Assembly (NCBI RefSeq): GCF_007991755.1
Contig: NZ_BJYY01000016.1
Location: forward strand, 124,001 to 188,000
Reading direction: 5' to 3'
Length of the DNA: 64,000 nt
Origin: Cellulomonas aerilata
GTDB lineage: Bacteria; Actinomycetota; Actinomycetes; Actinomycetales; Cellulomonadaceae
In this document: one piece after another, positions 19,648-37,525 of the stretch
How the letters are laid out: each line of letters opens with the position of its first letter
Position numbering within the stretch: the stretch's first letter is position 1
Made by a program: the position numbers and the translations under genes
The notes under the pieces: generated by a model
Told to the model about the DNA's origin: nothing
Databases searched by the model: none
Seen by the model: only the letters and a program-made list of their open reading frames with translations

Positions 19648-20118
19648 CGGTCAGGGAGACGCGGGGAACACGCCGAGACGCCGGGCGCGGGGAGCAACAG
19701 GAGATCCCGCCTCGTGGCCGGCGGAGCCGCAGGTGAGACGGGTGTTGCTGTGGAGCCGCCTCTCAGATTCGAGCTGAGACCTTTCTCTTCACGAGAGCGT
19801 CCCGGTGGACGTCGACGCTGGGCTGCCGCGAGCGCGGGGTGCACGGCGTGCGGCTCCACGAAGGGTCGGGGCGACACACGGGGTACACGGCGCGACGGAC
19901 CGTCGGCCAGAGAGAGCACCGACCCATAGCGGAGCACCGCAGCCCGGCGGAGGGTCGCGTCAAGGGTGGACGGAGTCCATCGCGTAGCGGCGCGTACCGC
20001 CCTCGATGCGGCCCGGAGTCGGGCGGACGCTCGGCGGCGGCTCGGCGGCTCCGTGGTGAGGCACCTCGGAAACTGCTCCGAGGTGCCCTCGCCGTTCTGC
20101 TCGGCCGGCGGGGTGGGG
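19648..20118 (+). repeat. Copy A of the att/left-end repeat: oldest integration scar
   Basis: 19648-19750 resembles the 3' end of the integrase gene plus its terminator as found at 37345-37449. 19751-19795 is a diverged copy of the tRNA-Thr 3' half (10 differences in 45). 19796-20118 matches the sequence right of the second scar (22790-23115), including a shared block reading ACCGACCCATAGCGGAGCAC. The T-stem of the tRNA fragment differs from copy B yet still pairs, so it may derive from another tRNA-Thr allele rather than simple decay. No gene lies here. Confidence 0.75.
20060..20087. terminator. Hairpin in left-end repeat, copy A
   Basis: GGCACCTCGGA (20060-20070) pairs perfectly with TCCGAGGTGCC (20077-20087), loop AACTGC. 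The equivalent hairpin in copy B (23058-23084) keeps pairing despite base changes, which supports a selected structure. It also lies just downstream of the monooxygenase stop (20211, minus strand). Confidence 0.6.
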
Positions 20119-20210: not shown

Positions 20211-21917
20211 CTAAGCCCCGCTGCCCTTGGTGTGGGGGGCAGCTGGCGGTGCCGACCGCGTGGTGGCGCGGGACCGGGTGCGTGGCAGCAGGTCGAAGTG
20301 CAGCGGCGTCTCCTTGGACAGCACGAAGACCTCCAGTGCGTGCTTGAGGAAGGACTCCAGCGGCGTGATGCCCTGGCGGAGCAGGTCGATGTGGAACAGC
20401 ACCCACTGCTGCAGCCAGCAGGCGTCCTTCGCCCACAGGAAGCTGTGCGTGAGGCTGTTCGAGCTGAGCTGGCGGCGCGCCGACCGCTGCATCTGGCTCG
20501 TGCTGCGCTCGCCGCGCACGCACAGGGAGTAGACGGCCAGGTCGGCGGCGTTGGTCGCCCGCATGGGCCCGAAGGTGGTCCACAGCGCGGTCGAGGAGGC
20601 CAGCACCGGCAGCTCCGGCACGATGAAGTGGTTGAAGAGCTTGGTCTCGGGGTCCAGCACGTACGGCTGGCCATCCCTGTCCAGCCGCAGGGTGTCGATC
20701 CCGCTCTTGTTGCCGGTGGCCCAGATGACCACGTCCGCCTCGAGTTCCGTCCCGTCCCGCAGGACCAGGGCGTCCTCGCTCAGCCGGGTCGGCTCACCGA
20801 CGACGTACGGCACACCTGCTAGATCCCGGCGCTGTGTGGCGCACATGACGCCGCCGTGGAAGTGGCTGAAGTCTGCGTGCGAGGGCCCGAAGGTCCACAG
20901 GTGGCCGGACGACCAGTGCAGCAGCGCCCCGAGTCGCTGCGAGACGCCGGTCCACAGGACGGTCGCGAGGTAGGTCAGGCCGCGCAACCTGTTGAGGGGA
21001 GACGCGTCGTGCAGCAGCACCTCGAAGCGGTAGAAGAGGTAGGGCTTGCGCATGACCCACGTGTAGCGCTCGTGGCCGGCGCGCCTGAGGCCGAGGACGA
21101 CGTCGCACGCCGCCTTGCCGCCACCCACCACGACGACCCGGCGGCCGTCGCGGACGACGTCGTCGAACACCTCGTCGGAGTACTGCGTGGTGTGGAGCTG
21201 CCTGCCCCGGAAAGAGTCCGACCCCGGCAGGCGCGGGACGTTCCCGTGGGCGGCCATCGACGCCCACACGACGAGGTCGTACGGGCCCGAGGTGCGCGTC
21301 GACCCCGTGCGGAGGTCGGTGAGCGCCAAGGTCGCCGTGCGGTCCGCGGAGCGGTAGCTGACCCCGTCGACCCGGGTGGCGAGCTGGCACCGGTCCCGCA
21401 GGGCGTGGGCCTCGGTGTAGCGGCGGATGTACCGCTCCACCTCCTCGGCCATCACCTTGCCACCCTGCACGTCCGGGTCATCGCTGTAGGGGAACCCGGC
21501 GAACGACGTGACGGTCATGCTCCCGTGGATCTGCAGGCCGTGATAGCGCAGGTTCCGGTTCCACGTGCCGCCGATATCGTCGTAGCGCTCGAAGACGTCG
21601 ACCTGCGTGACGCCGAGCTCGCGGAAGCGCTGCAGGCACTGCAGGCCGCTCCACCCCGCACCGACGACGGCGATCCGCAGGTCCTCGGGAAGACGGTGGT
21701 ACCGCAGGCGCCACACCCACAGCCGGCGCCCGAGGACGTACGCCAGCAGCAGCGGCGACAGCACGAGGAACACCGCGTAGAGCAGCACGGTCGACACCGC
21801 GACCAGGAGCCAGCCAGCGGGCGCCCACCACGGCCAGCGCTCCGGGGGCGTGCCCAGCTCGGAGTAGCGCGTGGACACCGGCGGTTCGCGCAGCTCGGGC
21901 AACGGCCGCGCGGCCAT
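20211..21917 (-). CDS. Flavin-containing monooxygenase with N-terminal membrane helix
   Basis: A 568-residue protein. A membrane helix (about 35-62) precedes the FAD-binding GAGWSG (86-91), then EDDIGGTW-like FERYDDIGGTWNRN, the FMO/BVMO signature FRGRQLHTTQY (236-246, pattern FxGxxxHxxxY), NADPH-binding GGGKAACD (265-272) and the ATG motif VIWATGNKSG. It should use NADPH and O2 to oxygenate a soft nucleophile or a ketone. Its ATG lies one base after the stop of the ABM gene, so the two are coupled. The N-terminal membrane helix is unusual for bacterial FMOs. The gene lies inside the relic element as cargo. Confidence 0.85.
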   Translation of the reverse strand: MAARPLPELREPPVSTRYSELGTPPERWPWWAPAGWLLVAVSTVLLYAVFLVLSPLLLAYVLGRRLWVWRLRYHRLPEDLRIAVVGAGWSGLQCLQRFRELGVTQVDVFERYDDIGGTWNRNLRYHGLQIHGSMTVTSFAGFPYSDDPDVQGGKVMAEEVERYIRRYTEAHALRDRCQLATRVDGVSYRSADRTATLALTDLRTGSTRTSGPYDLVVWASMAAHGNVPRLPGSDSFRGRQLHTTQYSDEVFDDVVRDGRRVVVVGGGKAACDVVLGLRRAGHERYTWVMRKPYLFYRFEVLLHDASPLNRLRGLTYLATVLWTGVSQRLGALLHWSSGHLWTFGPSHADFSHFHGGVMCATQRRDLAGVPYVVGEPTRLSEDALVLRDGTELEADVVIWATGNKSGIDTLRLDRDGQPYVLDPETKLFNHFIVPELPVLASSTALWTTFGPMRATNAADLAVYSLCVRGERSTSQMQRSARRQLSSNSLTHSFLWAKDACWLQQWVLFHIDLLRQGITPLESFLKHALEVFVLSKETPLHFDLLPRTRSRATTRSAPPAAPHTKGSGA

Positions 21918-22624: not shown

Positions 22625-22686
22625 TTGGACCGTCTGAACGGTCCAGGCGCGCGTGAGGAACACGTCGAGTGACCAGGGCGTCCTGA
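22625..22686 (+). pseudogene. 3'-terminal remnant of an integrase gene
   Basis: The 62 bases align with the last 63 bases of the intact integrase (37329-37391), sharing the codons for LDRLNG and the AACACGTCGAG block. A one-base length difference breaks the frame. The conserved hairpin that follows the integrase (AAGCCCG...CGGGCTT around CCTGCG-TTGT-CGCAGG) is also present at 22697-22738. It marks the right end of a former element. Confidence 0.7.
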
Positions 22687-22744
22687 GCACGGGCGAAGCC
22701 CGCCTCATGGCCTGCGTTGTCGCAGGTAGGACGGGCTTGGCTGG

Positions 22745-23115
22745 TGGAGCCGCCTATCAGAATCGAACTGATGACCTTCTCATTACGAGGGTGTCCCGGC
22801 TCACGCCGGCGCTGGGATGCCGCGGGGTTGGGGTGCATGGGGTGCGCGTCTCCTAGGGGTCGGGGGGACACATGGGGCACACGTCGTGATGGTCTGTGTC
22901 GAACAGGGAGAGCCACCGACCCATAGCGGAGCACAAGAGCCCGATGGAGGGTCGCGTCAAGGGTGGACGCAGTCCATCGCGTAGCGACGCGTGAGCGCCC
23001 TTGATGCGGCCCGGAGTTGGGCGGATGCTCAGCGGCGGGTCGGCGGCTCGGTGGTGAGGCGCCTCGGAACCGGTCCGGGGCGCCTTCGTCGTGCTCGGCC
23101 GGTGGGTTGGGGTGC
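22745..23115 (+). repeat. Copy B of att/left-end repeat (attL of the intact element)
   Basis: 22745-22789 equals the tRNA-Thr sequence from the anticodon loop to the CCA end. The following roughly 325 bases match copy A (19796-20118) with substitutions and are the left end of the intact element. Confidence 0.85.
23058..23084. terminator. Hairpin in left-end repeat, copy B
   Basis: GGCGCCTCGGA (23058-23068) pairs with TCCGGGGCGCC (23074-23084) with one G-T pair, loop ACCGG, followed by TTCGTC. Relative to copy A an A-T pair has become G-C on both arms, a compensatory change. Confidence 0.6.
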
Positions 23116-24297: not shown

Positions 24298-24864
24298 CTA
24301 AGTGCTCGTTACGATAGCCATGACGAACCCGACGACATATGCAAGACCGAACAAGAACGGGATCCAGATCTCTAGGTGCGTCAAGGCCCAGTAGGTCGAC
24401 TTGTCCTTCTCGTCACCGCGTAGAGCCTTCCACTCCCCGTTCCACCAGGGCGAGGCCGGCAACCTGAGTTCGAGGGCACCGATCACAGCGAATTTGCCCG
24501 AATTGAGTTGCCTGTATGAGCGCACCAGCCAGAACCAAGCCAGACACAAACCCAGGGCGAGCACTAGCAGCGGAAGGAGGACCCACGACGACAGCCCATC
24601 TGGTTGATCCTTCCAGAAGACAGCTACAAGCGTGAGTACAGCGCTGTGCAGCGTGAGGAAGAACGTGTTCGCGAGTCCGCGGCGACTCGAGATGCGATCC
24701 GCCATCTCGACGTACAGCTTGTACTGCTCCATGATGGCAGCCTGATAACCACTCCCATCAGCGTAGGACGCCTTGATCTCGATCTCATCGTTCCAGAGGT
24801 TTGGTGTGACCTCACTGGGTCGCGCAGGCGCGCTAACCTTGAAGTAGGTGGTCCACAGGGACAT
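24298..24864 (-). CDS. Small multipass membrane protein, resembles RipA-type octameric membrane proteins
   Basis: 188 residues from the ATG at 24864 (MSLWTTYFKVSAP); a GTG at 24897 is an alternative start. A soluble N-terminal part with EQYKLYVEMADRISSRRGLANTFFLTL leads into membrane helices at about residues 72-84 and 91-112. WLVRSYRQLNSGKF, LRLPASPWWNGEWKAL and a last helix (IWIPFLFGLAYVVGFVMAIV) follow. The helix with MADRISxRR followed by a membrane hairpin and RSYRQLNSxKFxVI recalls the family annotated as RipA-like octameric membrane proteins; this comparison is from memory. It lies 309 bases downstream of the WD40-Roc-TIR gene on the same strand and may be its membrane partner. Confidence 0.6.
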   Translation of the reverse strand: MSLWTTYFKVSAPARPSEVTPNLWNDEIEIKASYADGSGYQAAIMEQYKLYVEMADRISSRRGLANTFFLTLHSAVLTLVAVFWKDQPDGLSSWVLLPLLVLALGLCLAWFWLVRSYRQLNSGKFAVIGALELRLPASPWWNGEWKALRGDEKDKSTYWALTHLEIWIPFLFGLAYVVGFVMAIVTST

Positions 24865-24897
24865 AGGGCTAGTGTGCCGCAAGAGGCAGGTTTGCAC

Positions 24898-25173: not shown

Positions 25174-28100
25174 CTATGAGAATTGAACAAGGCCCTCACT
25201 GAGTCGCCTGACCGCCTCCGAGTCTGCAGGCAAACCCCAAAGCGAGACGATCAGTTGAAACACATGCAGGAAATATTGGCCACCAGTGAAGTCAATCGAC
25301 ACCCGTCCCCTCATAAGAGGAGGGAAAGCATCCGAAGATGACCCCTCGAGCAATACCGGGATAACGGTTCTCTTTTCCGCCTCCGTACCCAACATCCGAA
25401 GGTGAATCAGATCGACCTCGGCCGCCACAGCCGTTCCTCGGTCTGCCACCGTGTTCTCGTACTTTGTCCTGTAGAGCCTCGTTCCCACAACAACGACGTG
25501 GTCCGCCTCCGAGATGCGGCTAATGTAGCGAGCGAGGCTAGCACCGGGAGTGCTATCAGAGATGTCCAAGGTCACCTCGATGTCAGCCTCCCTCAAATCC
25601 CGAACCAGCGTGGACCTGACCCACTCCTCGTGAGCTGGAACCCCCCAGGCGTAACTTATGAAGCAGCTCTTCTTCTCAGTGCTGCGGCCCAACTCGCCAA
25701 GATGTGTCCTCAAGCCGCTCAATGCGACATTTAGTGCCGTGCGGCCAGTAGCGACGCCAGCTTGCTCCGTCGCGGTATGCGTGTACGAATCGCCCATACC
25801 CAGGTCGGCAGCGGTCGTAGGCAGAGGTATCCGGAATCCGTCTCTCGGACAGAAAGTCACGCCTGCGCCACTGTCCACGAACGTGACGACTTGCGCCGCG
25901 TCCAAACGATATCCGCACTGGCCACACGCCACGATTGGATAGATCCGTACGCTCACACGCTGCCGCGCCAGAAATTGCTCAACCAATCCTCGGAATACAG
26001 CCTTTGCGCTGAGCGGCGCGCCCGGGGCATTATGCAGCGTGAGCCACAAACTTCCATCAGGTCTCTGATAACGGGTCAGAGCCAAGACGGCGTGGTCCAT
26101 GCCATACACCGCGCGGTCCTGCCACTGATCGACTCGGCGCAGCACGTTGGTGTATCCGAGAAGCACAACGAGAGCCGCCCAGACATGCTCAGTCTTTCCG
26201 TCAACAACCATAGTGAGCGATTCTTCGAGTTCGAGCGACGGGGCAAAGCGATCTGCGCGTTCGTTGATCAGATCAGGGAATACAAGTAGGGACGTTGCAC
26301 CAATAGTCGTACGGAAACATACATTCAAGTGCAGAAACCGGGCGATAGCCGCGTCGACCATCAAGAATTGCTCATCTCGGCTCATATCCTGCAACTCGGA
26401 GAATGACCAATGGTTCTCGCGCAAAAGGTCCTCTTCGACGGCCCCGAGGCCCCTCTCGTTCCGACGCGCAGTTAAGATTATTGATGCGGCCAGATTGTTG
26501 AGGAGTTCTGGCTTGAGTACGACGGCCTCAACCCCTGATGTTGCCTGCACCACGGCAATGAGCCCGGATCGCTCAAGGTTCCGGACCGCACTGCGCAACT
26601 CCGCATCCGTAACTTCAAGGTCTTTAAGACTGGTATTTCTAAGTTGCTCAAACGTGAGCAGCGGGGACTCACCTTCGCTTCCCTCTTCCTTGCTCATCAG
26701 CACGGCATCCCGTATGAGCTTCAAGGTTTTCGTCGTCACTACCGCATCCAAGGCATCCCAGTCAATCGCGCCGTCGAGCGTCTCGAGCAACGATTCGACG
26801 CCTTCTCCGGTGAACGCACTGGTCTGTAGATAGCGCCCGTTCACTCCCTGCTCGCGGCCGTAGTCCTCGACTTCCGCGGCCGTTAAGATCGGACGTCCCA
26901 CGTCAACACGGGCGGCCACGAGCAATACGGACACCACTCCGGAGCTGTGGGACAACGCCTTCATCCAATACGAGATCGCCTTCATCGACTCAATTCTGCG
27001 CGTAGCATCTACGACTATCAGCGCAGCCGTGGCATCCTCTAGGAATAGCATGTGCACCAGGCGATAATCTGGTTGCCCCGCCAAATCCCACAGTACTGCG
27101 TCGCACTTTGTTCCGTCGGCTCTCGTTCGACCTAGGGACTCAATTATCCAGAACTGTTGACCGTGAGTCGAAGAATGCTCCTTGAACTCTCCACGTGCCA
27201 TCCGGTAACCAAGCCCTGTCTTACCGACGCCGCTATCGCCCAGTAGGACCACCTTGGCAGTCGTATACCGTTCCGCGATTGGCCCAGCATCGACACGGTC
27301 GAGTTCGTACTCGCCGACGGTTATGGCACCGGGCGCGGAGTCCAGCGCCAAAGCGAGGTAGGGATCAGTAGGATGGAAGGCCGCTCCGACCCAGTTCTCA
27401 CGGTACGGCTTATCGCCCGCCCTTTTCTTAGACCCCATTATGCCGCCGACCCAAACCGTTTCCCAGGTGCTTGTAGACCACAAGCGATAAGTGCCATCCC
27501 AGCTTGCCGACAGCAGTAGATCATCGTGCGGAGAGAACCAGAGAGCTATCACCAACCCGGTATGGCCCTGGAGGGTGAATCTCAGCTTGAGATCGGCATC
27601 TAGAATACTAATGTCGTTCGACGTGGCACCAGCGAGCCAACTGCCGTCGCGTCCAATAGCAACAACTGGCCACATACTCGGAGTTGAGCGCGTTCGTTTG
27701 TGGAAGTCCCTCCTCACATCCCAGTCACTGATCGAATTCTGCTCATTGAGCAGCAAATGGTCGCTGTCGGGACTCCAAATAGGTGCCGAACCGGTAGCAG
27801 GCGCACACTTCAGCACCCTGGGGTCGCCGATTGTCCGGGAGTCGGGCATGTATCTGTAAACTGTTAGTCCGTCTCCCCGTACCGCTATATACTCCCCATC
27901 TGGAGACCAGGCGATTCGGCTCGATCCGCTTGTATCTGTCAGTTCCTGCTCCGAGGTTTCGCCCTCTTCCGAAAAGAAAACAAGGCGCTCGTGGCTTGTA
28001 GTAGCAATGACGTCGCCACCCGGGTGCCAGGAGCAGTCCACCCCTGTTCCTCGAACGCTTCGGATGACGGATCTACTAGGCCAATCAATTAGCGATAGTG

Positions 28101-28290
28101 TCTTGTTTTGCAGCACAGCAAGGCGTGAGCCGTCGGGCTTCCAAGAAAGACTCACCACCGTCGTGTCGGCACCTTCAGGGATTGCCACCTCGGTCATCGA
28201 GTGGATAATGCTGGTCAAGGATGATTTGTTCGGCTCTGACACCGCAATGCCCCCTCGTATTAGTTGAGCGTTCGGCTCTAACACAGTCAT
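25174..28290 (-). CDS. WD40-Roc GTPase-TIR/SEFIR multidomain protein (putative defence sensor)
   Basis: 1038 residues, ATG at 28290 with GGAAGG eight bases upstream. Domains: WD40-type propeller (about 42-330; repeats LSWKPDGSRLAV, IAWSPDGEYIAV, LWFSPHDDLLLSASWDGTYRLWS); Ras/Roc-like GTPase (345-512) with P-loop GDSGVGKT (351-358), switch WDLAGQ (401-406), RVDVG (461-465) replacing NKxD, and SAFTGEG (491-497); COR-like linker with winged-helix-like segment (545-780); metal-knuckle-like CGQC...CPRD (789-817); C-terminal TIR/SEFIR domain (874-1018) with CFISYAWG, LDISDSTPGASL, EADHVVVVGTRLY and a conserved Glu near 958. Sensor-switch-effector order suggests abortive anti-phage immunity. This is inferred from architecture and location on an AICE; base composition is clearly lower in GC than the host. 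Confidence 0.8.
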   Translation of the reverse strand: MTVLEPNAQLIRGGIAVSEPNKSSLTSIIHSMTEVAIPEGADTTVVSLSWKPDGSRLAVLQNKTLSLIDWPSRSVIRSVRGTGVDCSWHPGGDVIATTSHERLVFFSEEGETSEQELTDTSGSSRIAWSPDGEYIAVRGDGLTVYRYMPDSRTIGDPRVLKCAPATGSAPIWSPDSDHLLLNEQNSISDWDVRRDFHKRTRSTPSMWPVVAIGRDGSWLAGATSNDISILDADLKLRFTLQGHTGLVIALWFSPHDDLLLSASWDGTYRLWSTSTWETVWVGGIMGSKKRAGDKPYRENWVGAAFHPTDPYLALALDSAPGAITVGEYELDRVDAGPIAERYTTAKVVLLGDSGVGKTGLGYRMARGEFKEHSSTHGQQFWIIESLGRTRADGTKCDAVLWDLAGQPDYRLVHMLFLEDATAALIVVDATRRIESMKAISYWMKALSHSSGVVSVLLVAARVDVGRPILTAAEVEDYGREQGVNGRYLQTSAFTGEGVESLLETLDGAIDWDALDAVVTTKTLKLIRDAVLMSKEEGSEGESPLLTFEQLRNTSLKDLEVTDAELRSAVRNLERSGLIAVVQATSGVEAVVLKPELLNNLAASIILTARRNERGLGAVEEDLLRENHWSFSELQDMSRDEQFLMVDAAIARFLHLNVCFRTTIGATSLLVFPDLINERADRFAPSLELEESLTMVVDGKTEHVWAALVVLLGYTNVLRRVDQWQDRAVYGMDHAVLALTRYQRPDGSLWLTLHNAPGAPLSAKAVFRGLVEQFLARQRVSVRIYPIVACGQCGYRLDAAQVVTFVDSGAGVTFCPRDGFRIPLPTTAADLGMGDSYTHTATEQAGVATGRTALNVALSGLRTHLGELGRSTEKKSCFISYAWGVPAHEEWVRSTLVRDLREADIEVTLDISDSTPGASLARYISRISEADHVVVVGTRLYRTKYENTVADRGTAVAAEVDLIHLRMLGTEAEKRTVIPVLLEGSSSDAFPPLMRGRVSIDFTGGQYFLHVFQLIVSLWGLPADSEAVRRLSEGLVQFS

Positions 28291-29179
28291 AGACTAGACC
28301 TTCCGGGCGTGTTTCACCTAGCGGTGTGGTTACTGCCCACAAGCAAGTGTGGCCCTCTGTGTCGGCAACGGCTGAAGGCTCCCCGTGGTTTCGGTAGTTT
28401 CGGGGGCATCGACGCGGGGTCAACGGCTCGCGCTGAAGTGCGCTGTGGTGGAACAACCGTGGCGCATGCATGCCGCTGATGGTTCACGCGGTCCGGGTAA
28501 GGTACCGAGCTTGTAGGATGCCCTTGGTGGCCATGGCGCCGGTGCCAATTCTATGTCGTGCATTGCCGTCTGGAAACCAGACGTGTTCGATGGGCGCCAG
28601 GCGCCAGGTGCGCGCCTCGATGGAGCCCAGCAAAGCCTCTTTTTCGAAAGCCGCATGGCTGTTTCTGCCTTTTCGTTGCCGCAGCAGCCTGCCGGTTGCA
28701 GCGCCCTCGGTGGCGGGTACAGCGTTGATGAAGATGCTCGACCCGGGACGCACGGCGTGCCGCGCTGCTTCTCAGATCGGCCTGCCCACCTTGGCGGAAA
28801 CCTTCTACATGTCGCTCATCACCGGACCGCATCGACGGTGCGGAGCTGCTGTGCGGACTCGGTCAAGACTGCGTCCCATGACGCACCGACGGACCAGGAC
28901 GCGAGAGGCATCGGCGCCAGGGGTGGGGCCGTCGTGGCGGCTGACCGGCTCGCGCTCATGCCGCGACGCGGTCGGCCCGGGCCCGGCGCGCACGATCTGA
29001 CGCAGCTCGCGGACCTGCCGATGTCCGTGCGATGCCCGGGGCATGGGCTCGCTCGCCGTGCGGTCTGAGGGGGCGCCCCGGCGCGACGCCCTGCAGTGCT
29101 CATTCCCGCGGGCGCCATGCCGATAGGTTGACGCATGGATAGCCCCCGGTCGGTCGACGGCGGCGGGCTATGGCGTCTT
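28291..29179. other. Intergenic cargo region with a possible gene fragment
   Basis: About 890 bases upstream of the TIR gene. A minus-strand frame at 28484-28753 (89 residues, MRPGSSIFINAVPATEGAA...) has a plausible composition and includes RTWRLAPIEHVWFPDG, but no ribosome site or recognisable family. It may be the remains of a gene. One copy of the ATGCCGCGACGCGG repeat lies at 28958-28971. Confidence 0.3.
28956..28971. repeat. Palindromic cargo-boundary repeat, copy 1
   Basis: TCATGCCGCGACGCGG, containing the palindrome CCGCG-A-CGCGG. It shares 22-23 bases with copy 3 (31201-31223) and 16 with copy 2 (30501-30516). Confidence 0.6.
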
Positions 29180-29199
29180 GCGTCTCAAATTCGAGACGC
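29180..29199. promoter_or_regulatory. Palindromic operator-like site before the membrane gene pair
   Basis: GCGTCTC (29180-29186) and GAGACGC (29193-29199) form a perfect inverted repeat around AAATTC, ending nine bases before the GGAGGGAG ribosome site of the gene at 29221. Position and symmetry suit a repressor operator. Confidence 0.5.
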
Positions 29200-29220
29200 G
29201 CTCATCCGGAGGGAGACAAG

Positions 29221-29790
29221 GTGTCGGGGTCGCGCCGGTCCGTCTCCGTCGCGAAGGTGTCCCCAGGCCTCCGGGCGTTCGGTTGGACCTTCACGCTAGG
29301 CCTCAACGGGATGCTGGCAGTTCAGGCGGTGACCCATGGATGGGCGGACCACAAGAATCTGCTGGAGACGGCACCGATCTTTGGTGGCTTGCTCGGAGCA
29401 TGGATCTCAGTGTGGTCGATGGGCATCATGGTGAAGGAGACCGAACTGACACTCACGGGATTCTGGCATGTTTGGAAGGGAAACCCGTGGGCCGTGCAAG
29501 GGGCAATCAACCGGGGCGCACTGGACCTACAAGTTCGCCAGAAGACAGGCCCGAGCGCGGATGATGTACAGATAGAGGTCGCGGCAATACAGGGGTCGCT
29601 CATCGAGGAGCTACGTGGAAACGTCCGGGCAGCCGGCGCCATACGCCGGCTACGCAATGTCCAGGCCGCGACACCACACGAGTTCACGCCTGCACTCCGG
29701 CGCAGGGTGCGGTACGAAGTCGCCCTGTGGATCGGGGGCGCTGCAAGCGCGCAGTGGCTACTGGCCGACTACCTGTGGTCCCGCGGATGA
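29221..29790 (+). CDS. Hypothetical membrane protein, first gene of a cargo pair
   Basis: 189 residues from the GTG at 29221, chosen because GGAGGGAG lies five bases upstream; an in-frame start at 29170 precedes the palindrome and is unlikely. Two membrane helices near the N-terminus (FGWTFTLGLNGMLAVQAV and IFGGLLGAWISVWSMGIMV), then a soluble helical region (NPWAVQGAINRGALDLQ, VQIEVAAIQGSLIEELRGNVRAAGAIRRLRNV) and a hydrophobic C-terminal segment. No family recognised. The stop overlaps the next start by ATGA, so the two form an operon. Position in the AICE cargo zone suggests an accessory function. Confidence 0.65.
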   Translation: MSGSRRSVSVAKVSPGLRAFGWTFTLGLNGMLAVQAVTHGWADHKNLLETAPIFGGLLGAWISVWSMGIMVKETELTLTGFWHVWKGNPWAVQGAINRGALDLQVRQKTGPSADDVQIEVAAIQGSLIEELRGNVRAAGAIRRLRNVQAATPHEFTPALRRRVRYEVALWIGGAASAQWLLADYLWSRG

Positions 29791-30470
29791 CGCGACAAGT
29801 CCAGGGGCCGGCGCATCCGCATCACAAGAAGCTGCGCCTGGTGTTCGCGATTGCGGCTGCTCTAGCGGTAATCGCCGGTGTCGCCTCTACGCCGGCCCGA
29901 CCGGCCCTCTACGTTGCGGCCCCCGTCATGGGGGCAATCGTGACCGGGATGGATACTGGCATGGGGCGGCGGCGGACGCTCATCGCGGTCTGGCACGACG
30001 CCTCCCACCCGGAAGGCGTCGCACGCCGCCTGTTGGGTGTGGGGACCACACCCGCCACGGCTGGTGCCATGGCTCGCAGCGCATGTGGCCTACCGGGCTT
30101 CAGTAACAGCGCTACGGCGATCTCGCTGCAACCGGAAGCTATTGGCGTGCTGGACACCGCCGAGGCTTGGCGGCTTCTGGCCCACTGCCGGGCTTCTCGG
30201 CTGGATAACCAAGTGGGGGCGACGGTGTGGTTCGTTACGGATGCCGCCTCACCGCTGCTGCTTGTCCCGGGTGAGTCAGCCCTCGGCTTCGCAACCACGC
30301 GCCAGTCCGCGCGGCGCGTCGTTTTCGCGCGCCGGCGCGAATCTCTCGGGGAGCCGACGAGGGTGCGCTGGCACGAAATTCCCGTCGACCAACTCCTCTG
30401 GCCCGAGGGCACGCCGGAGCCGTTGCGAGGGGCCCGTCCCCTCCATCACAAGGACACGCGCGTCGTCTGA
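29787..30470 (+). CDS. Hypothetical membrane-anchored protein, second gene of the cargo pair
   Basis: 227 residues, ATG overlapping the upstream stop (ATGA). A membrane helix pair at about residues 16-53 (LRLVFAIAAALAVIAGVAS and LYVAAPVMGAIVTGMD) is followed by a soluble region: RRTLIAVWHDASHPEGVARRLLG, a hydrophobic PLLLVPGESALGFATTRQSARRVVFARRRE segment and a polar tail. No known domain is recognised. The two-gene unit is flanked by copies 1 and 2 of the palindromic repeat. Confidence 0.6.
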   Translation: MTRQVQGPAHPHHKKLRLVFAIAAALAVIAGVASTPARPALYVAAPVMGAIVTGMDTGMGRRRTLIAVWHDASHPEGVARRLLGVGTTPATAGAMARSACGLPGFSNSATAISLQPEAIGVLDTAEAWRLLAHCRASRLDNQVGATVWFVTDAASPLLLVPGESALGFATTRQSARRVVFARRRESLGEPTRVRWHEIPVDQLLWPEGTPEPLRGARPLHHKDTRVV

Positions 30471-31248: not shown

Positions 31249-31695
31249 TCAGCGGCGCGAGTCGAGCGCCCCAGACCGTACGTTCGTTCCGTCGTGAGCT
31301 CGCACGTGGACCTCGCCGTCGAGAGCGTCGAGGACTCGGGCGGCGTACGCGGGAAGCATAAGCGTGGGCACGTCCTGTATGTCTTGCCATTCGACTGCTA
31401 TCGCTTCATTCGTCTGCGGGAGCGGGTCTGATAAGAGCCGGCAGCGGAACACCAGGGCGACGATTCCGCGGGGCATGTTCTTGTAGACCCCAGTGAGGGG
31501 CCCCACCTCGACCTGGGCGCCTGTCTCTTCCTCGACTTCACGATGCACGGCCGCCTCGATGGTCTCGTCGAGTTCGACGATGCCTCCGGGTGGTTCCCAT
31601 AGTCCGTTGTCGCGTCGTTGGATCAGCAGCACGCGCGTCGCGGGAGCGTCGAGCACGATTGCCGCCGCGCTGACGGAGTGCCGCGGTGTCTCCAT
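31249..31695 (-). CDS. NUDIX hydrolase, Pif-like transfer-immunity protein of the AICE
   Basis: 148 residues starting METPRHSVSA; GAGGAGG lies eight bases before this ATG (31695), while a GTG at 31704 overlaps the ribosome site. A complete Nudix box spans residues 38-60 (GIVELDETIEAAVHREVEEETGA, read as Gx5Ex7REUxEExGU). NUDIX enzymes cleave nucleoside-diphosphate-linked compounds. In pSAM2 the NUDIX protein Pif blocks redundant transfer between carriers, and a NUDIX gene next to the GntR regulator is typical of AICEs. It is divergent from the GntR gene, sharing a 50-base control region. Confidence 0.85.
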   Translation of the reverse strand: METPRHSVSAAAIVLDAPATRVLLIQRRDNGLWEPPGGIVELDETIEAAVHREVEEETGAQVEVGPLTGVYKNMPRGIVALVFRCRLLSDPLPQTNEAIAVEWQDIQDVPTLMLPAYAARVLDALDGEVHVRAHDGTNVRSGALDSRR

Positions 31696-31731
31696 GGGTC
31701 CCACCTCCTCGATGTGACAGTCTAGGAAGTA

Positions 31732-31741
31732 CAGACGTCTG
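31732..31741. promoter_or_regulatory. Palindrome between NUDIX and GntR genes
   Basis: CAGACGTCTG is a perfect 10-bp palindrome inside GTAC...GTAC (31729-31750) and directly before the GGAGGAG ribosome site of the regulator. It is a likely autoregulatory operator. Confidence 0.5.
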
Positions 31742-31754
31742 GAGGAGTACCGAC

Positions 31755-32573
31755 ATGGCCGCCGAGAGGGAGCGCGCTCCCCACCTGCAGGTGGTGGGCG
31801 GTCGAGACGTAGCGCTCGATAAGGATTCTGACCGGCCGCTGTTCAAGCAGATCGCGGACTCGCTGCGCGCGCGGATCGTCGCCGGCGAACTGGCACCCGG
31901 CGACAAGGTGCCGTCCGAGACGCAACTCATGGAGTCGTACCGCGTGGCGCGGATGACCGTGAGGCAGGCGCTGGCCCTACTGAAGGCCGAGGGCCTGTTG
32001 GTCGCGGAGCACGGCCGCGGCGTGTTCGTCCGCGCTCGTCCCGTGGTGCGGCGGGTCGCGTCCGACCGGTTCGCGCGGCGCCACCGGGAGGCGGGTCAGG
32101 CGGCGTTCATCGCGGAGGCGCAGGGTGTTGGTGCTCCCAACGTCGACGAGCTCGAGGTCGGGTACGAGACGGCGCCGCCCCACGTGCGTGAGGCGCTGCG
32201 GCTCGGGCCGCGGGGGAAGGTCTTGGCTCGACGTCGCCGCTACCTGCTCGATGGCGAGCCGGTCGAGCTCGCAGAGACCTTCGTCCCGGCAGAGCTAGCG
32301 AAGGGAACGCCGATCGAAGAACGGCACACGGGGCCGGGTGGCGTCTACGCACGCCTCGAAGAGAGCGGCCACCACCTCGCGGAGTTCTCCGAGGAGGTCG
32401 CCGCGCGGATGCCGACACCTGAGGAGCGTCGACGACTGCGGCTCCCGGACGGCACGCCGGTGCTCACTGTGCGGCGGATCGCGTTCCGTGACGATGGGGT
32501 GCCGGTCGAGACGACGGATACCGTCAAGGCCGCCCCGGCGTACGTCCTGGAGTACCGCTTCCCTGCCGAGTAG
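31755..32573 (+). CDS. GntR-family transcriptional regulator (KorSA-like)
   Basis: 272 residues starting MAAERERAPHLQ with GGAGGAG upstream. N-terminal winged helix (about 33-100): PLFKQIADSLRARIVAGELAPGDKVPSE, then SYRVARMTVRQALALLKAEGLLVAEHGRGVFV, the GntR DNA-binding signature. The C-terminal UTRA (HutC-type) ligand domain ends LEYRFPAE. In pSAM2 the GntR protein KorSA represses pra and so keeps the element integrated; the same position just upstream of the Pra-like gene is conserved here. The repeats at 32595-32645 are candidate binding sites. Confidence 0.9.
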   Translation: MAAERERAPHLQVVGGRDVALDKDSDRPLFKQIADSLRARIVAGELAPGDKVPSETQLMESYRVARMTVRQALALLKAEGLLVAEHGRGVFVRARPVVRRVASDRFARRHREAGQAAFIAEAQGVGAPNVDELEVGYETAPPHVREALRLGPRGKVLARRRRYLLDGEPVELAETFVPAELAKGTPIEERHTGPGGVYARLEESGHHLAEFSEEVAARMPTPEERRRLRLPDGTPVLTVRRIAFRDDGVPVETTDTVKAAPAYVLEYRFPAE

Positions 32574-32594
32574 CACTCTGAGTGCTTGCGGCTC

Positions 32595-32645
32595 CTCTAG
32601 ATGAGTGGTTCCATCTTTCTCGAGCACAGTGCTCTAGACGAGTGG
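32595..32645 (+). promoter_or_regulatory. Direct-repeat operator before the Pra-like gene
   Basis: CTCTAGATGAGTGG (32595-32608) and CTCTAGACGAGTGG (32632-32645) are 14-bp repeats with one difference, 37 bp apart, ending in the GGAGGAG ribosome site of the gene at 32658. They are the likely binding sites for the GntR repressor or the Pra activator. Confidence 0.6.
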
Positions 32646-32657
32646 AGGAGCAGACTC

Positions 32658-33068
32658 ATGGCGATCAAGCAGCGGTTCCAGATCGAACACTCGGTGGCGT
32701 TCCCGAAGGGTGCGTTCCTGCGGGGTGGGGTCGAGCCGGTGGCGGACTTCCAGGCGGAGAAGCGCCCGGACGGCACGCGCCCGCAGCAGCGGGACAAGGA
32801 GACGGCGCTGCCGCTGTGGCAGTGCGTCGTGATCGACGCGGACGACGACGCCGGCAAGAAGGACATCGGCGTGACGGTGAAGTTCGCGGCCGCGCATCAG
32901 CCGGTCCCGCCGGCCAACAAGTCGGGCTTTCCGTGGACTCCGGTGGAGTTCGTGGGGCTGACGGCTCTGCCGTACATCGACGACGGCGGCACTCGGCCGC
33001 GTATCGCGTGGTCCTTCCGTGCCGAGCGGCTGGTCGCGCCGGGCGAGGCAGACAAGGCAGCTGCGTGA
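32658..33068 (+). CDS. Pra-like activator of AICE replication, integration and excision
   Basis: 136 residues starting MAIKQRFQIEHSVAFPKGAF, ATG eight bases after GGAGGAG. It is recognised by the family pattern FPxGAFLxGxVEPVxDF, then RDKETALPLWQCVVIDAD and a C-terminal WTPVEFVGLTALPYI..., as in proteins named plasmid replication, integration and excision activator (Pra of pSAM2). In pSAM2 Pra switches on the rep-xis-int operon. No domain with known structure is evident. The stop overlaps the FtsK-like start (GTGA), so it leads the transfer/replication operon. Confidence 0.8.
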   Translation: MAIKQRFQIEHSVAFPKGAFLRGGVEPVADFQAEKRPDGTRPQQRDKETALPLWQCVVIDADDDAGKKDIGVTVKFAAAHQPVPPANKSGFPWTPVEFVGLTALPYIDDGGTRPRIAWSFRAERLVAPGEADKAAA

Positions 33069-34546
33069 TTCGGTCGGGCGCCCGGTGGTCGCATCGCCAC
33101 TGGCGACTCCTGGTGGCGACGCTGATGCTCGGGCTGGTGGCCGACCTCGTCGGAGCGACACGGGTGTCCACAGCACTCTTCCTCGGGTGGCCGGCTGTGG
33201 CCCTGATGCTCGGGACGTGGGCGGCCGTCGACCCGGAGTCCTTTGAGGACGTCGTCGCTGGGCCCCTGCGCCGTCGTGGATGGCGGCGGTGGGCGAGGAA
33301 GGCGTGGCCGTCTCTGACGGCATCGTGCGGTCTGGCGACATCGAGCCGCGACGGCGGGGTCGTCGTTCCCCGGCTGGTCCGCACACGAGCGTCCCGCACG
33401 ACTCTAACTCTGCGAGTGCGGGCGCGCGCCGGGCAAACAGTGGATGACCTGCAGGCGGCGGTCGCGAGGCTCGGTACGGCGGCCGGGGCAGAGGCATGGT
33501 CCGCAGGTCCGGTAGGTCCGGGTGTGCTCGACATCGACCTCGTGATGGGCGACCTTCTCCGGGACGTCACGCAAGCGCCGATGCCGCGCGACGTTGTGGT
33601 CGACGCCGTGCCGATCGGGCGCCGGCAGGACGGGTCCACGTGGTGGCTGCCGCTGCTCGGTCGACACACCCTGGTCGTCGGCGCGTCGGGGTCCGGCAAG
33701 GGCTCGGTGCTGTGGGGCGTGTGCGCTGGCCTCGCACCGGCCGTCTCCGCTCGGTTGGTGCGCCTGTGGGCGGTGGATCTCAAGGGTGGGCTTGAGGTCG
33801 GCGTCGGGGCCGGCTTGTTCTCGGCCGTGTGCACCCGCGAGACGCAGGCGGTGTCGCTGCTGCGGCGGCTGTTGAGGGTCGTCGAGGAGCGCCAGCAGGC
33901 GATGTACGGCGTGTCCCGGAACTTCGAACCGAGGCCGGGCGACCCGGTGCACGTCCTGGTGATCGACGAGCTCGCGGCGCTGACGGCGTACGCGGACAGC
34001 GAGACGCGGACCGAGGCCTCGCGGCTGCTGTCCAAGATCCTGACCCAGGGTCGGGCGCTCGGGGTCGTGGTGGCGGCGTTCGTGCAGGACCCCCGCAAGG
34101 AGACGGTGGGCATGCGGAACCTGTTCACCCAGCGGGTCGCACTGCGGCTGCTGTCGGGGGACGAGTCCCGGATGGTTCTCGGCGACGGTATGGCGTCGGT
34201 AGCGCCGGCTCACACCATCGCCCGTGCGCAGCCGGGCACGGCGTACGTGGTCGACGACGACGGCTCGGTCGACCGGGTCCGCGCCCACTACTGGACCGAC
34301 GATGCCGTCCGCGCGGTGGCCCGGCTGCACCCGGCCCCGGACCTCGGCGACCTGCCGGCCCCGGCGAAGGACGCCGACACGCGCCCGGTGACCGAACCCA
34401 CGCCGACGACCGAGTCGGTGTCCACGGTCGAGGACACCAACGGCATCGCCGCGGTCCCCGGCCCGACACCGGCTCGCAAGCCCCGTGCCCCTCGCAAACC
34501 GAGGGCGCCGCGTGCACCCCGCGCCGAGCAGGAGCAGGCGTCGTGA
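33065..34546 (+). CDS. FtsK/SpoIIIE-type DNA translocase (TraSA-like)
   Basis: 493 residues from the GTG at 33065. Two membrane helices (about 13-30 and 36-52) anchor the protein. The motor domain has Walker A GASGSGKGS (206-214), LWAVDLKGGLE, Walker B VLVIDEL (297-303) and AFVQDPRKETVGMRNLF. The C-terminal tail is rich in Pro, Lys and Arg (ARKPRAPRKPRAPRAPRAEQ) and could bind DNA. In AICEs this single hexameric pump moves double-stranded DNA between hyphae or cells without a type IV secretion system. It overlaps both neighbours by four bases. Confidence 0.9.
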   Translation: MIRSGARWSHRHWRLLVATLMLGLVADLVGATRVSTALFLGWPAVALMLGTWAAVDPESFEDVVAGPLRRRGWRRWARKAWPSLTASCGLATSSRDGGVVVPRLVRTRASRTTLTLRVRARAGQTVDDLQAAVARLGTAAGAEAWSAGPVGPGVLDIDLVMGDLLRDVTQAPMPRDVVVDAVPIGRRQDGSTWWLPLLGRHTLVVGASGSGKGSVLWGVCAGLAPAVSARLVRLWAVDLKGGLEVGVGAGLFSAVCTRETQAVSLLRRLLRVVEERQQAMYGVSRNFEPRPGDPVHVLVIDELAALTAYADSETRTEASRLLSKILTQGRALGVVVAAFVQDPRKETVGMRNLFTQRVALRLLSGDESRMVLGDGMASVAPAHTIARAQPGTAYVVDDDGSVDRVRAHYWTDDAVRAVARLHPAPDLGDLPAPAKDADTRPVTEPTPTTESVSTVEDTNGIAAVPGPTPARKPRAPRKPRAPRAPRAEQEQAS

Positions 34547-36081
34547 GCGAGCCCCCGGGTCTGCGCACGTTCCCCGGGTACACCGAGGACGAAGGGCTCG
34601 ACCTCGGCCACCTGTCGGCTACGGCCGTCGGGGCCATCGTGCAGCGGATCGCGGACGGCTCGGCGGCGCTGTTCGCGGACGTGGCGGCGTCGGTCGGGTA
34701 CTGCTCCAAGCCCGTTCGGTTGGTCGGGTCGTCGCACACGGTCGACGGACGAACCGGCGAGATCGTCGGGTCGTTCTCGTCGGACGGCGCTCCGCTGGGC
34801 GTGGTCTACCGCCCGTGTGGCAACCGGCGGGCGGACGTGTGTGCGGCCTGCTCGCGGGTGTACGCCCGCGACACCTTCGCGATGGTTCGAGCGGGTCTGC
34901 TGGGCGGAAAGACCGTGCCGCAGGAGGTGGCGTCGAACCCTCTCGTATTCGCGACGCTGACCGCGCCGTCATTCGGGTACGTGCACGGCGTCCGGGCCAC
35001 GGGCGGGCATCCGACGGGTGGGCGGTGCCGTCCCCGTGACACGGCGAACCGGTGCGAGCACGGGCGCCCCGTCGGCTGCATGACGGTCCACACCGACGAC
35101 GACCCCGCCGTGGGCGGGCCGCTGTGCGTCGACTGCTACGACTGGGCATCGGCGGTCGTGTGGCAGTGGTGGGCTCCGGAGCTGTGGCGCCGCTTCACCA
35201 TCACCCTGCGACGATCCCTCGCCTCCCGGCTCGGCGTGAGCGAGTCACGCCTGAAGGGACGGGCCTCGGTGCAGTTCGCCAAGGTCGCGGAGTTCCAGGC
35301 GCGAGGGCTGGTCCACTTCCACGCCCTTGTGCGGCTCGACGGCCCGGGCGGGGCAGGATCGCGGGCTCCGCTCGACGGCGGCACTCTGGCGGACCTCATC
35401 CGCGAGGCAGCCGGGTCGGTGTCCTTCGTAGCTCCACCGGTCGACGGTGCGGACGTGTCGCGCAGGCTCGCCTTCGGGGCGCAGCTCGACGCGCGAACCG
35501 TGCGCACCGGCCTGCCGGCGGACGACGATGACGACGACTCCCTGCGTGCCGAGCAGGTGGCCGGCTACCTGGCGAAGTACGCCACGAAGTCGACCGGCAC
35601 CGACCCGGCGTCTCCCCGGCCGCACCTGACGCGCCTGGCGCACACCTGTCGGGCCTTCGCGCAGCGGGCGGCGTCCAGCGACCCTGCGGGCGACCACGAA
35701 GCCGCCGATGACGCGAGCGAGCAGGGCCGGCCCTCGCCGTACGCGCTGCTGGGCAAGTGGGCGCACATGCTCGGCTTCCGGGGTCACTTCTCGACCAAGT
35801 CCCGCCGCTACTCGGTGACGCTCGGCCGGCTGCGTCGTGCCCGGCACCGCTACCGCCAGGTCACCGCCAATGCGGCACGCAACGGCGTCGCGCTGGATAC
35901 CCGCGACCTGGAGGCCCGGCTCCTGGCCGACGACGAGACGACGCTCGTCATCGGCTCGTGGAGCTTTCAGGGGTCCGGGTGGACCAACGCCGGCGACAAG
36001 GCGCTGGCCGACGCGGCAGCCGCTCGTGCGCGTGAGTACGCGCGATGGAGGGCCGAAGGGAAGAGCACATCCAACCGGTGA
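34543..36081 (+). CDS. RepSA-like rolling-circle replication initiator
   Basis: 512 residues from the GTG at 34543. A cysteine-rich N-terminal part (C92, C100, C103; C162, C171; C195, C198) is consistent with zinc fingers. The HUH metal motif is GLVHFHALVRLDG (HFH at 258-260), and GYLAKYATKS (341-350) supplies the candidate catalytic Tyr. This matches the RepSA family of AICEs, which nick the element's origin for replication after excision. A run of Asp (residues 327-332) sits just before the Tyr motif. Confidence 0.88.
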   Translation: MSEPPGLRTFPGYTEDEGLDLGHLSATAVGAIVQRIADGSAALFADVAASVGYCSKPVRLVGSSHTVDGRTGEIVGSFSSDGAPLGVVYRPCGNRRADVCAACSRVYARDTFAMVRAGLLGGKTVPQEVASNPLVFATLTAPSFGYVHGVRATGGHPTGGRCRPRDTANRCEHGRPVGCMTVHTDDDPAVGGPLCVDCYDWASAVVWQWWAPELWRRFTITLRRSLASRLGVSESRLKGRASVQFAKVAEFQARGLVHFHALVRLDGPGGAGSRAPLDGGTLADLIREAAGSVSFVAPPVDGADVSRRLAFGAQLDARTVRTGLPADDDDDDSLRAEQVAGYLAKYATKSTGTDPASPRPHLTRLAHTCRAFAQRAASSDPAGDHEAADDASEQGRPSPYALLGKWAHMLGFRGHFSTKSRRYSVTLGRLRRARHRYRQVTANAARNGVALDTRDLEARLLADDETTLVIGSWSFQGSGWTNAGDKALADAAAARAREYARWRAEGKSTSNR

Positions 36082-36099: not shown

Positions 36100-36315
36100 A
36101 TGGCAAGAAGGAAGCGGTTCGAGGGTGAACCGTTGGCGGGCATGCCGGAGATGCTGACGACGGCCGAGGTCGCTCGGGCGCTCAAGGTGGCGCCGTCAAC
36201 GCTGTGCCGGTGGCGGGCGGCGGGTGTGGGGCCTCGGGTGTTCTGGCTGGGCGAGGCGACGCCGCGGTACCGCGAGGTCGACGTCGTCGCGTGGCTGGAG
36301 CTGGTCTCGGCGTGA
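36100..36315 (+). CDS. Excisionase-like MerR-type helix-turn-helix protein
   Basis: 71 residues, AGGGGAAGG upstream. MLTTAEVARALKVAPSTLCRWRAAGVGP is the DNA-binding helix-turn-helix, followed by the RYREVDVVAWLE wing typical of Xis/AlpA-like proteins. It should bend DNA at att sites and bias the integrase toward excision. The stop overlaps the integrase start (GTGA), so the two are co-translated. Confidence 0.88.
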   Translation: MARRKRFEGEPLAGMPEMLTTAEVARALKVAPSTLCRWRAAGVGPRVFWLGEATPRYREVDVVAWLELVSA

Positions 36316-37391
36316 GCGTGCACAAGCTGCCGAGTGGTCGGTGGCACGCACGGTTGAAGTCGGGCCGCGAGTACGTCGGGAGCCGGACGTTCGACACGCG
36401 ACGGGACGCCATGGCGTGGCTGACCCGGGAGCGGGCTGCGATGGCGGGTGGCATCGATCCTCGCGCGGGGCGGCGGCTCGTCCGCGTCGTCGTGCAGGAG
36501 TGGTTGGAGCAGCGCGAGCACACGGTGTCCGCGAAGACCTTCACCGCCGACGCGGCACTCCCCCGGCTCCTGCCGAAGTTCCTGTCGGCGGTGCAGATCG
36601 GCTCGGTGACGGATCGGGAGGTGTCACGAGCCCTGGTGGCGCTCAACCGCTCGGGGCTGGCGGAGTCCTCGGTCCGGCGCTTTCGGGCGTCGCTGTCGGC
36701 CTTCTTCGCCTGGGCGGTGCTCGAGCGGATCGTGGCGACGAACCCGGTGAAGACGGCACCGATGCCAAAGACGCGGGTGATCCGCAGCGAGATGCGCCCG
36801 TTCTCGGAGGCGGAGCTGGAGGCCTTCCACGCGATGGCAGCCGGGCAGGACGCGCGCCTGGCCGACGTGCTCCTCGTCGCCGGCTGGACGGGCCTGCGGT
36901 GGTCGGAGCTGCGCGAGGTGCGGGTGCGTGACTTTGTCGAGGTGCCGCTCCCGCTGCTGCTGGTCTCGCGTGCCGCGCCGGAGGGCGTCGACGTCAAGAC
37001 GACGAAGTCGGGCCGGCGCCGGTCGGTGCCCGTCAGCGATCGCGTGCTGCCGATCGTCCGGGCCCTGGCGGCGGACCGTCGGCTCGACGATCTGCTGTTC
37101 GTCACCTCGTCGGGGCATCGCCTCCACGCCTCCGCGGTGAAGCGAACGGTGCAGTGGACGGAGGTCTCCGGCGGCCGTCGCATCCACGATCTGCGCCACA
37201 CGGCGGCGTGCCTTTGGCTGGCGCGTGGCGTCGATGCGGTGACCGTCCAGACGTGGCTGGGACACGCGTCGATCGCGACGACGAACATCTACCTGCACCA
37301 CCTCGGGACTACCGCTGACCGGGCCGGATTGGACCGTCTGAACGGTCTGGGGCACACATGGGGAACACGTCGAGAGACCGGGGCGTCGTGA
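36312..37391 (+). CDS. Tyrosine recombinase (AICE integrase)
   Basis: 359 residues from the GTG at 36312. N-terminal arm/core-binding region (1-150) with FRASLSAFFAWAVLERIVATNPV, then the catalytic domain with Arg196 in TGLRWSELREV, Lys near 232, HDLRH (292-296), LGHAS (His318) and Tyr327 in NIYLHH. All catalytic positions are present, so the protein should be active. The gene ends 59 bases before the CCA end of tRNA-Thr, the usual arrangement for a tRNA-targeting integrase. Confidence 0.93.
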   Translation: MSVHKLPSGRWHARLKSGREYVGSRTFDTRRDAMAWLTRERAAMAGGIDPRAGRRLVRVVVQEWLEQREHTVSAKTFTADAALPRLLPKFLSAVQIGSVTDREVSRALVALNRSGLAESSVRRFRASLSAFFAWAVLERIVATNPVKTAPMPKTRVIRSEMRPFSEAELEAFHAMAAGQDARLADVLLVAGWTGLRWSELREVRVRDFVEVPLPLLLVSRAAPEGVDVKTTKSGRRRSVPVSDRVLPIVRALAADRRLDDLLFVTSSGHRLHASAVKRTVQWTEVSGGRRIHDLRHTAACLWLARGVDAVTVQTWLGHASIATTNIYLHHLGTTADRAGLDRLNGLGHTWGTRRETGAS

Positions 37392-37400
37392 GCAAGAGCG

Positions 37401-37443
37401 AAGCCCGCCTCGGGTCCTGCGTTGTCGCAGGCGAGACGGGCTT
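37401..37443. terminator. Two-layer hairpin between integrase and tRNA-Thr
   Basis: AAGCCCG (37401-37407) pairs with CGGGCTT (37437-37443), CTCG (37409-37412) with CGAG (37432-37435), and the inner CCTGCG with CGCAGG around TTGT. It serves both the integrase (+) and the tRNA (-). The hairpin recurs after the integrase remnant at 22697-22738. Confidence 0.8.
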
Positions 37444-37449
37444 TGGCTG

Positions 37450-37525
37450 TGGAGCCGCCTATCAGAATCGAACTGATGACCTTCTCATTACGAGTGAGAC
37501 GCTCTACCGACTGAGCTAAGGCGGC
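37450..37525 (-). tRNA. tRNA-Thr (anticodon CGT)
   Basis: 76 bases including an encoded CCA (37450-37452). The acceptor GCCGCCT pairs with AGGCGGC, the D arm is GCTC...GAGC, the anticodon stem is TCTCA/TGAGA around CTCGTAA (CGT reads ACG), and the T arm ATCAG/CTGAT encloses TTCGATT. The 3' half (37450-37494) is supplied by the integrated element and duplicates 22745-22789. Confidence 0.97.

Follow-up and report, generated by a model that had tools for sequence, protein, structure and literature searches.

Here we analyzed a 64,000-nucleotide (nt) stretch of the Cellulomonas aerilata genome (contig NZ_BJYY01000016.1, positions 124,001 to 188,000), hereafter the window, and within it a minus-strand gene at 25174..28290 that encodes a large multidomain protein. 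From its ATG start the open reading frame (ORF) encodes 1038 amino acids (aa), with a WD40 propeller, a Roc-type GTPase, a COR-like region, a zinc ribbon and a C-terminal TIR/SEFIR domain, as assigned with Pfam and PADLOC. Judged from sequence, the protein is probably a single-chain immune receptor that forms part of the cargo of a pSAM2-like integrative element and acts through NAD+, a reading to which we give a probability of roughly 0.58. An earlier reading of the DNA letters alone, referred to here as the original prediction, had described this one-chain architecture; domain and motif comparisons confirmed it, with the COR part weak.

Domain architecture of the receptor

The propeller occupies residues about 43-335 (27286..28164, minus strand; limits set by eye). 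It is matched by Pfam WD40 (5.5e-13) and by propeller models, in line with the predicted propeller, and seven repeats can be counted by eye. No LRR (leucine-rich repeat) family was found in the protein with Pfam at E<=0.1. The GTPase domain follows at residues 346-505 (26776..27255, minus strand) and scores with both Ras (8.9e-21) and Roc (2.9e-19). The three motifs originally listed, GDSGVGKT, WDLAGQ and RVDVG, are all present, with the GDSGVGKT P-loop at residues 351-358 (27217..27240, minus strand) by sequence and alignment.

Searches described below returned ten relatives with a whole core, or 11 whole cores including the window, which served to judge these motifs. The G-x4-G-K-[ST] P-loop and W-D-x2-G-Q at G3 are kept in 11/11 aligned cores. 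With Pfam at E<=1, Ras and Roc models match 7/7 cores, as read from all 7 families listed for the window core and from 25 of 35 families for the other six. The departure of the G4 motif from N-K-x-D had been taken as a possible sign of changed nucleotide specificity. However, A-R-x-D replaces N-K-x-D in 9/11 cores (the exceptions are GKSD in G1267 and NKID in G527), and 11/11 keep the Asp, the residue through which other GTPases recognize the base. Judging from this alignment, A-R-x-D at G4 is a family trait, and the odd motif therefore does not in itself point to changed specificity. The idea of a dead or altered GTPase was dropped since A-R-x-D is common to 9/11 cores.

The region after the GTPase (residues about 506-780; 25951..26775, minus strand) had been called a COR-like linker. 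Over this part, a profile of seven cores was compared with a profile of nine canonical Roc-COR sequences. The two align co-linearly over 232 columns with a score of 25.8, which was reached in none of 300 column and 300 block shuffles (600/600 beaten; best shuffle 24.1, longest 163 columns). A comparison of three family sequences with one canonical sequence was not significant. The canonical LRR-Roc-COR protein of G157, another genome of the class, served as the control and matches COR-A at 1.5e-36 and COR-B at 7.4e-28. We consider with moderate confidence that the region is a divergent COR. Because the curated COR models fail on the window protein, a plain Roco assignment was dropped and "COR-like" is used instead.

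Next comes a zinc-ribbon-like knuckle of Cys789, Cys792, Cys814 and Asp817 (25840..25926, minus strand), which would bind metal. Its predicted C-x2-C...C-P-R-D pattern can be seen in the sequence and in alignments. The first and third Cys occur in 11/11 aligned cores; the fourth position is Asp in the window protein, and the second Cys is missing from G909.

The C-terminal domain (residues 870-1022; 25225..25683, minus strand) scores as TIR_2 in Pfam (1.3e-13 at residues 877-1004) and as bSEFIR in PADLOC (1.5e-23 over residues 870-1022, profile positions 35-185 of 412), which argues against an earlier concern that it might lack a TIR fold. Pfam SEFIR, at 4.6e-4, is under the family cut-off. 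At E<=0.1, PADLOC matched the whole protein with bSEFIR and HEAT-ARM_XIII only, and Pfam gave no ThsB_TIR match. The conserved Glu, originally placed at about 958, is exactly Glu958 (codon 25417..25419, minus strand). This putative catalytic residue aligns with a Glu in 9/9 TIR domains of a first alignment, from which three relatives and one tail were left out.

Relatives, outputs and the integrative element

The family is rare and patchy in its spread. Two whole-core relatives lie on plasmid records, of Nostoc sp. C057 and Calothrix sp. NIES-4101, and a search profile of these two and the window matched 1/291 genomes in a cyanobacterial sample (G909) and 3/251 in a Chloroflexi sample (G527, G1267 and G1355). 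The G1355 protein begins near a contig end, and its propeller may be cut. A seven-member profile matched 6/80 genomes of the taxonomic family to which G909 belongs; in one of the six, G1114, the match covers no more than the G domain. The 11 cores exclude G1114 as well as a second G1449 copy, whose sequence is divided between two contig ends (L103, L104). Among 396 genomes of the window's own phylum, Actinomycetota, the window itself was the sole match at E<=1e-15. Besides the window, single-sequence searches of 149 and 394 genomes gave WD40 or TIR stretches and the Roco protein of G157 only. A contig scan with the full window protein gave 22 loci that match in the WD40 part, one of which led to G527, whose true relative sits elsewhere in the genome. 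Receptor relatives were found neither in phage records nor, with the core or the TIR domain, in viral contigs, and phage-borne relatives were dropped from consideration. The relative in G1267 (L047 268-10632) adjoins ORFs that by eye are phage-tail-like, and by hydropathy it has hydrophobic segments at its N-terminus. An Acaryochloris plasmid (L077 1-1899) has an LRR gene, a COR-domain gene and a DUF4062 gene in a row; passages of PMC13174449 describe DUF4062 as a TIR-like NADase family.

After the zinc ribbon, the output is a TIR in the window and in 8/10 relatives. The other two are Nostoc C057, with metallophosphoesterase and CHAT, and G1449, with metallophosphoesterase and NACHT with NCH2; these two have related cores, at a distance of about 0.24 substitutions per site. 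Nostoc C057 also encodes NACHT and NCH2, each in a gene of its own directly downstream of the receptor. The 1955-aa protein of G1449 (L102 2797-8664) resembles a fusion of the Nostoc C057 receptor, NACHT and NCH2 genes (L034 5809-12560) and, judged by eye, has lost all of the CHAT domain but its start. In the G527 protein, TIR_2 was matched at two places, of which the N-terminal one scores better. The nearest relative is G909, with 41% core identity and a tree grouping with the window at support 1.000. Its SEFIR/TIR region is like that of the window but has a deletion and an Asp for the Glu; after this decayed region comes an appended TIR (PADLOC ThsB, 5.1e-38) that has the Glu. The G909 output looks like one that decayed and was then replaced. 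By these comparisons, the sensor-switch core is kept while the output changes across the family.

In a wider alignment, the Glu is present in the window protein, and 6/8 TIR-bearing relatives have it in their C-terminal TIR. From this, the TIR of the window protein appears catalytic. Other family members may have non-catalytic TIRs, because the C-terminal TIRs of G1480 and G527 are without the Glu and need not be enzymes.

The receptor gene is cargo of an element of about 14.7 kb flanked by two attachment repeats. The left repeat (22646..22789) is a 144-nt direct repeat with 87% identity to the right copy (37351..37494); 46 nt are identical at the core, and the right copy includes the 3' part of the integration target, a tRNA-Thr(CGT) gene identified with ARAGORN (37450..37525, minus strand). 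A tyrosine integrase (36204..37391, plus strand; Phage_integrase, 5.2e-21), whose start codon is uncertain, is accompanied by an excisionase-like helix-turn-helix protein (36100..36315, plus strand; HTH_17, 1.5e-7) and a RepSA replication initiator (34507..36081, plus strand; RepSA, 3.8e-150) with a start codon chosen by hand. An FtsK/SpoIIIE-type protein (32582..34546, plus strand; FtsK_SpoIIIE, 1.2e-9), its true start probably later, probably serves transfer. Integrase, RepSA, FtsK-type transfer protein and tRNA attachment site are features of pSAM2-like elements (actinomycete integrative and conjugative elements, AICE), and together with HTH_17 and the 144-nt repeat they bear out the original claim of an integrative element. 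A GntR/UTRA regulator (31686..32573, plus strand; UTRA 6e-27, GntR 1.2e-23) and a NUDIX protein (31249..31704, minus strand; NUDIX 4.7e-21), which presumably resembles Pif of pSAM2, are also encoded. The GC (guanine plus cytosine) content is 57% for the receptor gene and 58% for the adjoining 8xMP gene, versus 71-73% for three element core genes, which suggests that these two genes are recent cargo.

Two overlapping ORFs of the element (29170-29790 and 29727-30470, both plus strand) match no Pfam family. About 3 kb left of the left attachment site is a further attachment-like repeat (19750-19995 versus 22744-22992), which may have been left behind when an element integrated earlier at this tRNA-Thr, and a flavin monooxygenase gene (20211-21917) lies between these repeats.

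Proposed mechanism and rival explanations

We infer sensing, switching, NADase activity, any signal, the 8xMP role and phage defense alike, and order them as follows. The WD40 propeller would be the likely sensing face and would keep the receptor inactive. A sensing event would change the nucleotide state of the Roc GTPase, and this change would be converted into a new dimer or oligomer by the COR-like region together with the zinc ribbon. The TIR/SEFIR domains would then gather, and NAD+ would be cleaved by Glu958. Depletion of NAD+ is both the simplest output and the most likely one. As a second choice, an ADP-ribose-type signal may act on the adjoining 8xMP protein, as in type II Thoeris with another membrane effector. 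We prefer depletion as the main output because the tree places the window 8xMP protein with six others lacking a ThsB-like TIR neighbor (below). The original proposal that the propeller senses, the GTPase switches and the TIR kills stands as the best reading; the TIR is a likely killer, with the reservation that 2/8 relatives are without the Glu.

Several results weigh against a NAD+-consuming immune receptor of this kind. For the COR region, HHalign gave weak nominal values (E 0.013, probability 3%), and Pfam gave no COR-A or COR-B match in the window protein (E<=0.1) or the window core (E<=1). In the C-terminal TIR, the Glu column is occupied by Tyr in G1480 and by His in G527. Homologs in housekeeping loci had been named as a warning sign; two relatives are on plasmids, yet the receptors of G909 and G527 have chromosomal neighbors that look ordinary by eye.

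A different output would follow if the 8xMP gene were a true part of the system, with the TIR making a nucleotide signal and 8xMP breaching the membrane barrier as its effector, much as a different effector does in Thoeris. We regard this as doubtful. The gene (24298..24897, minus strand; Pfam 8xMP, 3.3e-45) lies just downstream of the receptor gene on the same strand and encodes a possible partner of 199 aa (GTG start) or 188 aa (ATG start at 24864), with three hydrophobic segments by hydropathy. In its favor, 8xMP is rare in the class (12/246 genomes at E<=0.001, window included; two of the 11 loci besides the window's are under the family cut-off), and a ThsB-like TIR gene stands just upstream of 8xMP in 16/32 other plasmid, viral and class loci. 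On plasmids, 5/10 loci have an over-cut-off ThsB_TIR gene (Pfam) within about 4 nt upstream, and a further Leptolyngbya locus has a TIR_2 match under the cut-off; these are 10 of 13 records, the other three being Leptolyngbya with the same match figures as the included one, and 2/10 stretches had no annotated features and were read as ORFs. On viral contigs the count is 9/11, with E from 1.3e-23 to 4.2e-50 for a profile of seven TIR genes from other loci, and both viral TIR genes checked with Pfam (L084, L086) are over the ThsB_TIR cut-off. In the class it is 2/11, namely L062, which is in the training set of that profile, and L063, in which TIR and 8xMP are separated by a 100-aa ORF. Against the link, the receptor and 8xMP genes are separated by 276 nt (309 to the ATG) versus about 4 nt in the plasmid pairs, so a tight operon was dropped; a consensus scan of the gap found no promoter- or terminator-like site, which says little. 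The window TIR is of the SEFIR type and not the ThsB type, and 8xMP was found neither in the flanks of 6/6 receptor relatives nor in the stretches of four further genomes. In the tree, the window 8xMP protein groups at support 0.932 with those of L050, L051, L060, L061, L064 and L081, and none of these six has a ThsB-like TIR neighbor in the locus stretch covered; the TIR-paired L080 is next to this group (support 0.978). Because of these six closest relatives in the set, the receptor-8xMP link is a lead suggested by sequence context, not a result. A broader joint version is unlikely: the family would be a prokaryotic NLR counterpart with a Ras-type GTPase, its outputs replaced over time with G909 caught in the process, and a Thoeris-like, uncharacterized TIR-8xMP pair would be wired to the receptor, a TIR-made nucleotide opening an oligomeric 8xMP.

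It is somewhat less likely again that the TIR/SEFIR domain is a scaffold rather than an enzyme, with GTPase-driven assembly recruiting other TIR/SEFIR proteins. Animal SEFIR domains act as adaptors, two genes with TIR_2 domains follow the Calothrix relative, and we gave the scaffold more weight because two relatives (G1480, G527) are without the Glu in the C-terminal TIR. However, Glu958 is kept, likewise in 6/8 relatives, and in G909 the first domain lost its Glu yet the second TIR has it. The least likely of the explanations considered is a host signaling or developmental regulator outside defense. WD40 and small-GTPase modules also serve ordinary signaling, and the ordinary-looking neighbors in G909 and G527 would fit such a role, but the relatives carry output domains typical of conflict systems (TIR, CHAT, NACHT, metallophosphoesterase), and the spread is patchy, with two plasmids and an integrative element among the carriers. 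An immune receptor acting through NAD+ remains our preferred reading.

Other 8xMP loci gave further observations. The viral TIR-8xMP loci (L080 and L082-L089, around 3500-4500; 424-1337 in L087) look like a two-gene defense module. In L090, a TIR upstream of 8xMP suspected by eye was dropped, as it gave weak TPR matches only. The ORFs beside 8xMP in L061, L064, L081 and L060 match no Pfam family at E<=0.01; those before 8xMP in L061 (2-1378) and L064 (321-1367) are similar to each other, with a hydrophobic N-terminus and a Rossmann-like end by eye. A DUF4328 gene is upstream of 8xMP in both L050 (3167-3964) and L051 (2833-3531). In L065 of the class sample (288-1303, minus strand), a nucleoside 2-deoxyribosyltransferase-like ORF (5.2e-6, just under the Pfam cut-off) joins 8xMP and is another possible nucleotide-enzyme partner. 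A Paenarthrobacter plasmid (L058, 475-1837 and 3558-4435) has two closely spaced TIR pairs, in which a TIR gene and then a caspase-family gene, by annotation type IV Thoeris-like, are upstream of a TIR-8xMP pair. No 8xMP was found in phage records. Against the PDB, the 8xMP profile reached E 0.07 or worse, to mechanosensitive channels, from which no inference was drawn. Among titles and abstracts of the open-access literature, no paper on an 8xMP protein was recognized.

Comparison with known systems

The closest described plan is that of the LRR-AP-GTPase-COR proteins, across which no fewer than 24 C-terminal domains occur, TIR included, and which section 15 of Kaur et al. (eLife 2021, PMC8195603) presents as predicted conflict systems. 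Like the systems in that section, the window protein has a Roc-type GTPase, a COR-like region and an N-terminal repeat sensor, and across the 11 cores the C-terminal effectors vary (several TIR types, metallophosphoesterase with CHAT, metallophosphoesterase with NACHT). Unlike them, it has WD40 in place of LRR and a COR unseen by curated models, and it adds a zinc ribbon, A-R-x-D at G4 and a SEFIR-type TIR. The WD40 version was not found in that section, and no paper on it was recognized among open-access listings. The original statement that no such system had been described holds for the WD40 version as far as this section goes, while the LRR-GTPase-COR-TIR plan had been predicted in 2021; by its domain order the WD40 receptor is a variant of that general plan. 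Passages of PMC7159879 also place AP-GTPase-COR parts in MoxR-vWA systems. With the canonical Roco of G157, the window protein shares the Roc domain and, between profiles, a co-linear alignment through the COR region. Unlike that protein, in which COR-A and COR-B are matched, it gives neither.

Among TIR-based defenses, the bSEFIR defense protein shares the C-terminal domain with the receptor, over profile positions 35-185 of 412 only, whereas in the window protein a GTPase receptor ends in this domain. Thoeris, which pairs a ThsB TIR with ThsA, shares a TIR and, in the window, a membrane-protein gene nearby, and the nearest relative, G909, has a ThsB-type TIR. Unlike Thoeris, the window TIR is part of a GTPase receptor, with the two genes 276 nt apart, and no ThsA effector (SIR2-SLOG, TM-macro or caspase-like) was found with Pfam in the 13 other window ORFs scanned. 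Assignment to Thoeris or bSEFIR was dropped, as ThsB_TIR, ThsA and the whole bSEFIR profile were not found. According to passages of PMC12847820, the TIR product His-ADPR and a TM-macro ThsA disrupt the membrane in type II Thoeris, which keeps an 8xMP output in play for the window. The ThsB-like TIR and 8xMP pairs of plasmids and viral contigs have 8xMP proteins 29-43% identical to that of the window; unlike the window, they have a small separate TIR protein directly upstream. These pairs suggest that TIR signaling may have a membrane partner.

The broadest likeness is to STAND receptors of the APAF-1/NLR type (APAF-1 is described in passages of PMC13174449), in which a repeat sensor, a nucleoside triphosphate switch and a death-type output appear analogous to the parts predicted here. 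Having a sensor, a GTP switch and a TIR output in one chain may help to show how outputs are gated by a Roc-COR-like GTPase, the class to which LRRK2 belongs, and the natural output swaps of the relatives could serve as controls. Where APAF-1/NLR receptors use a STAND ATPase, the window protein would use a Ras-type GTPase.

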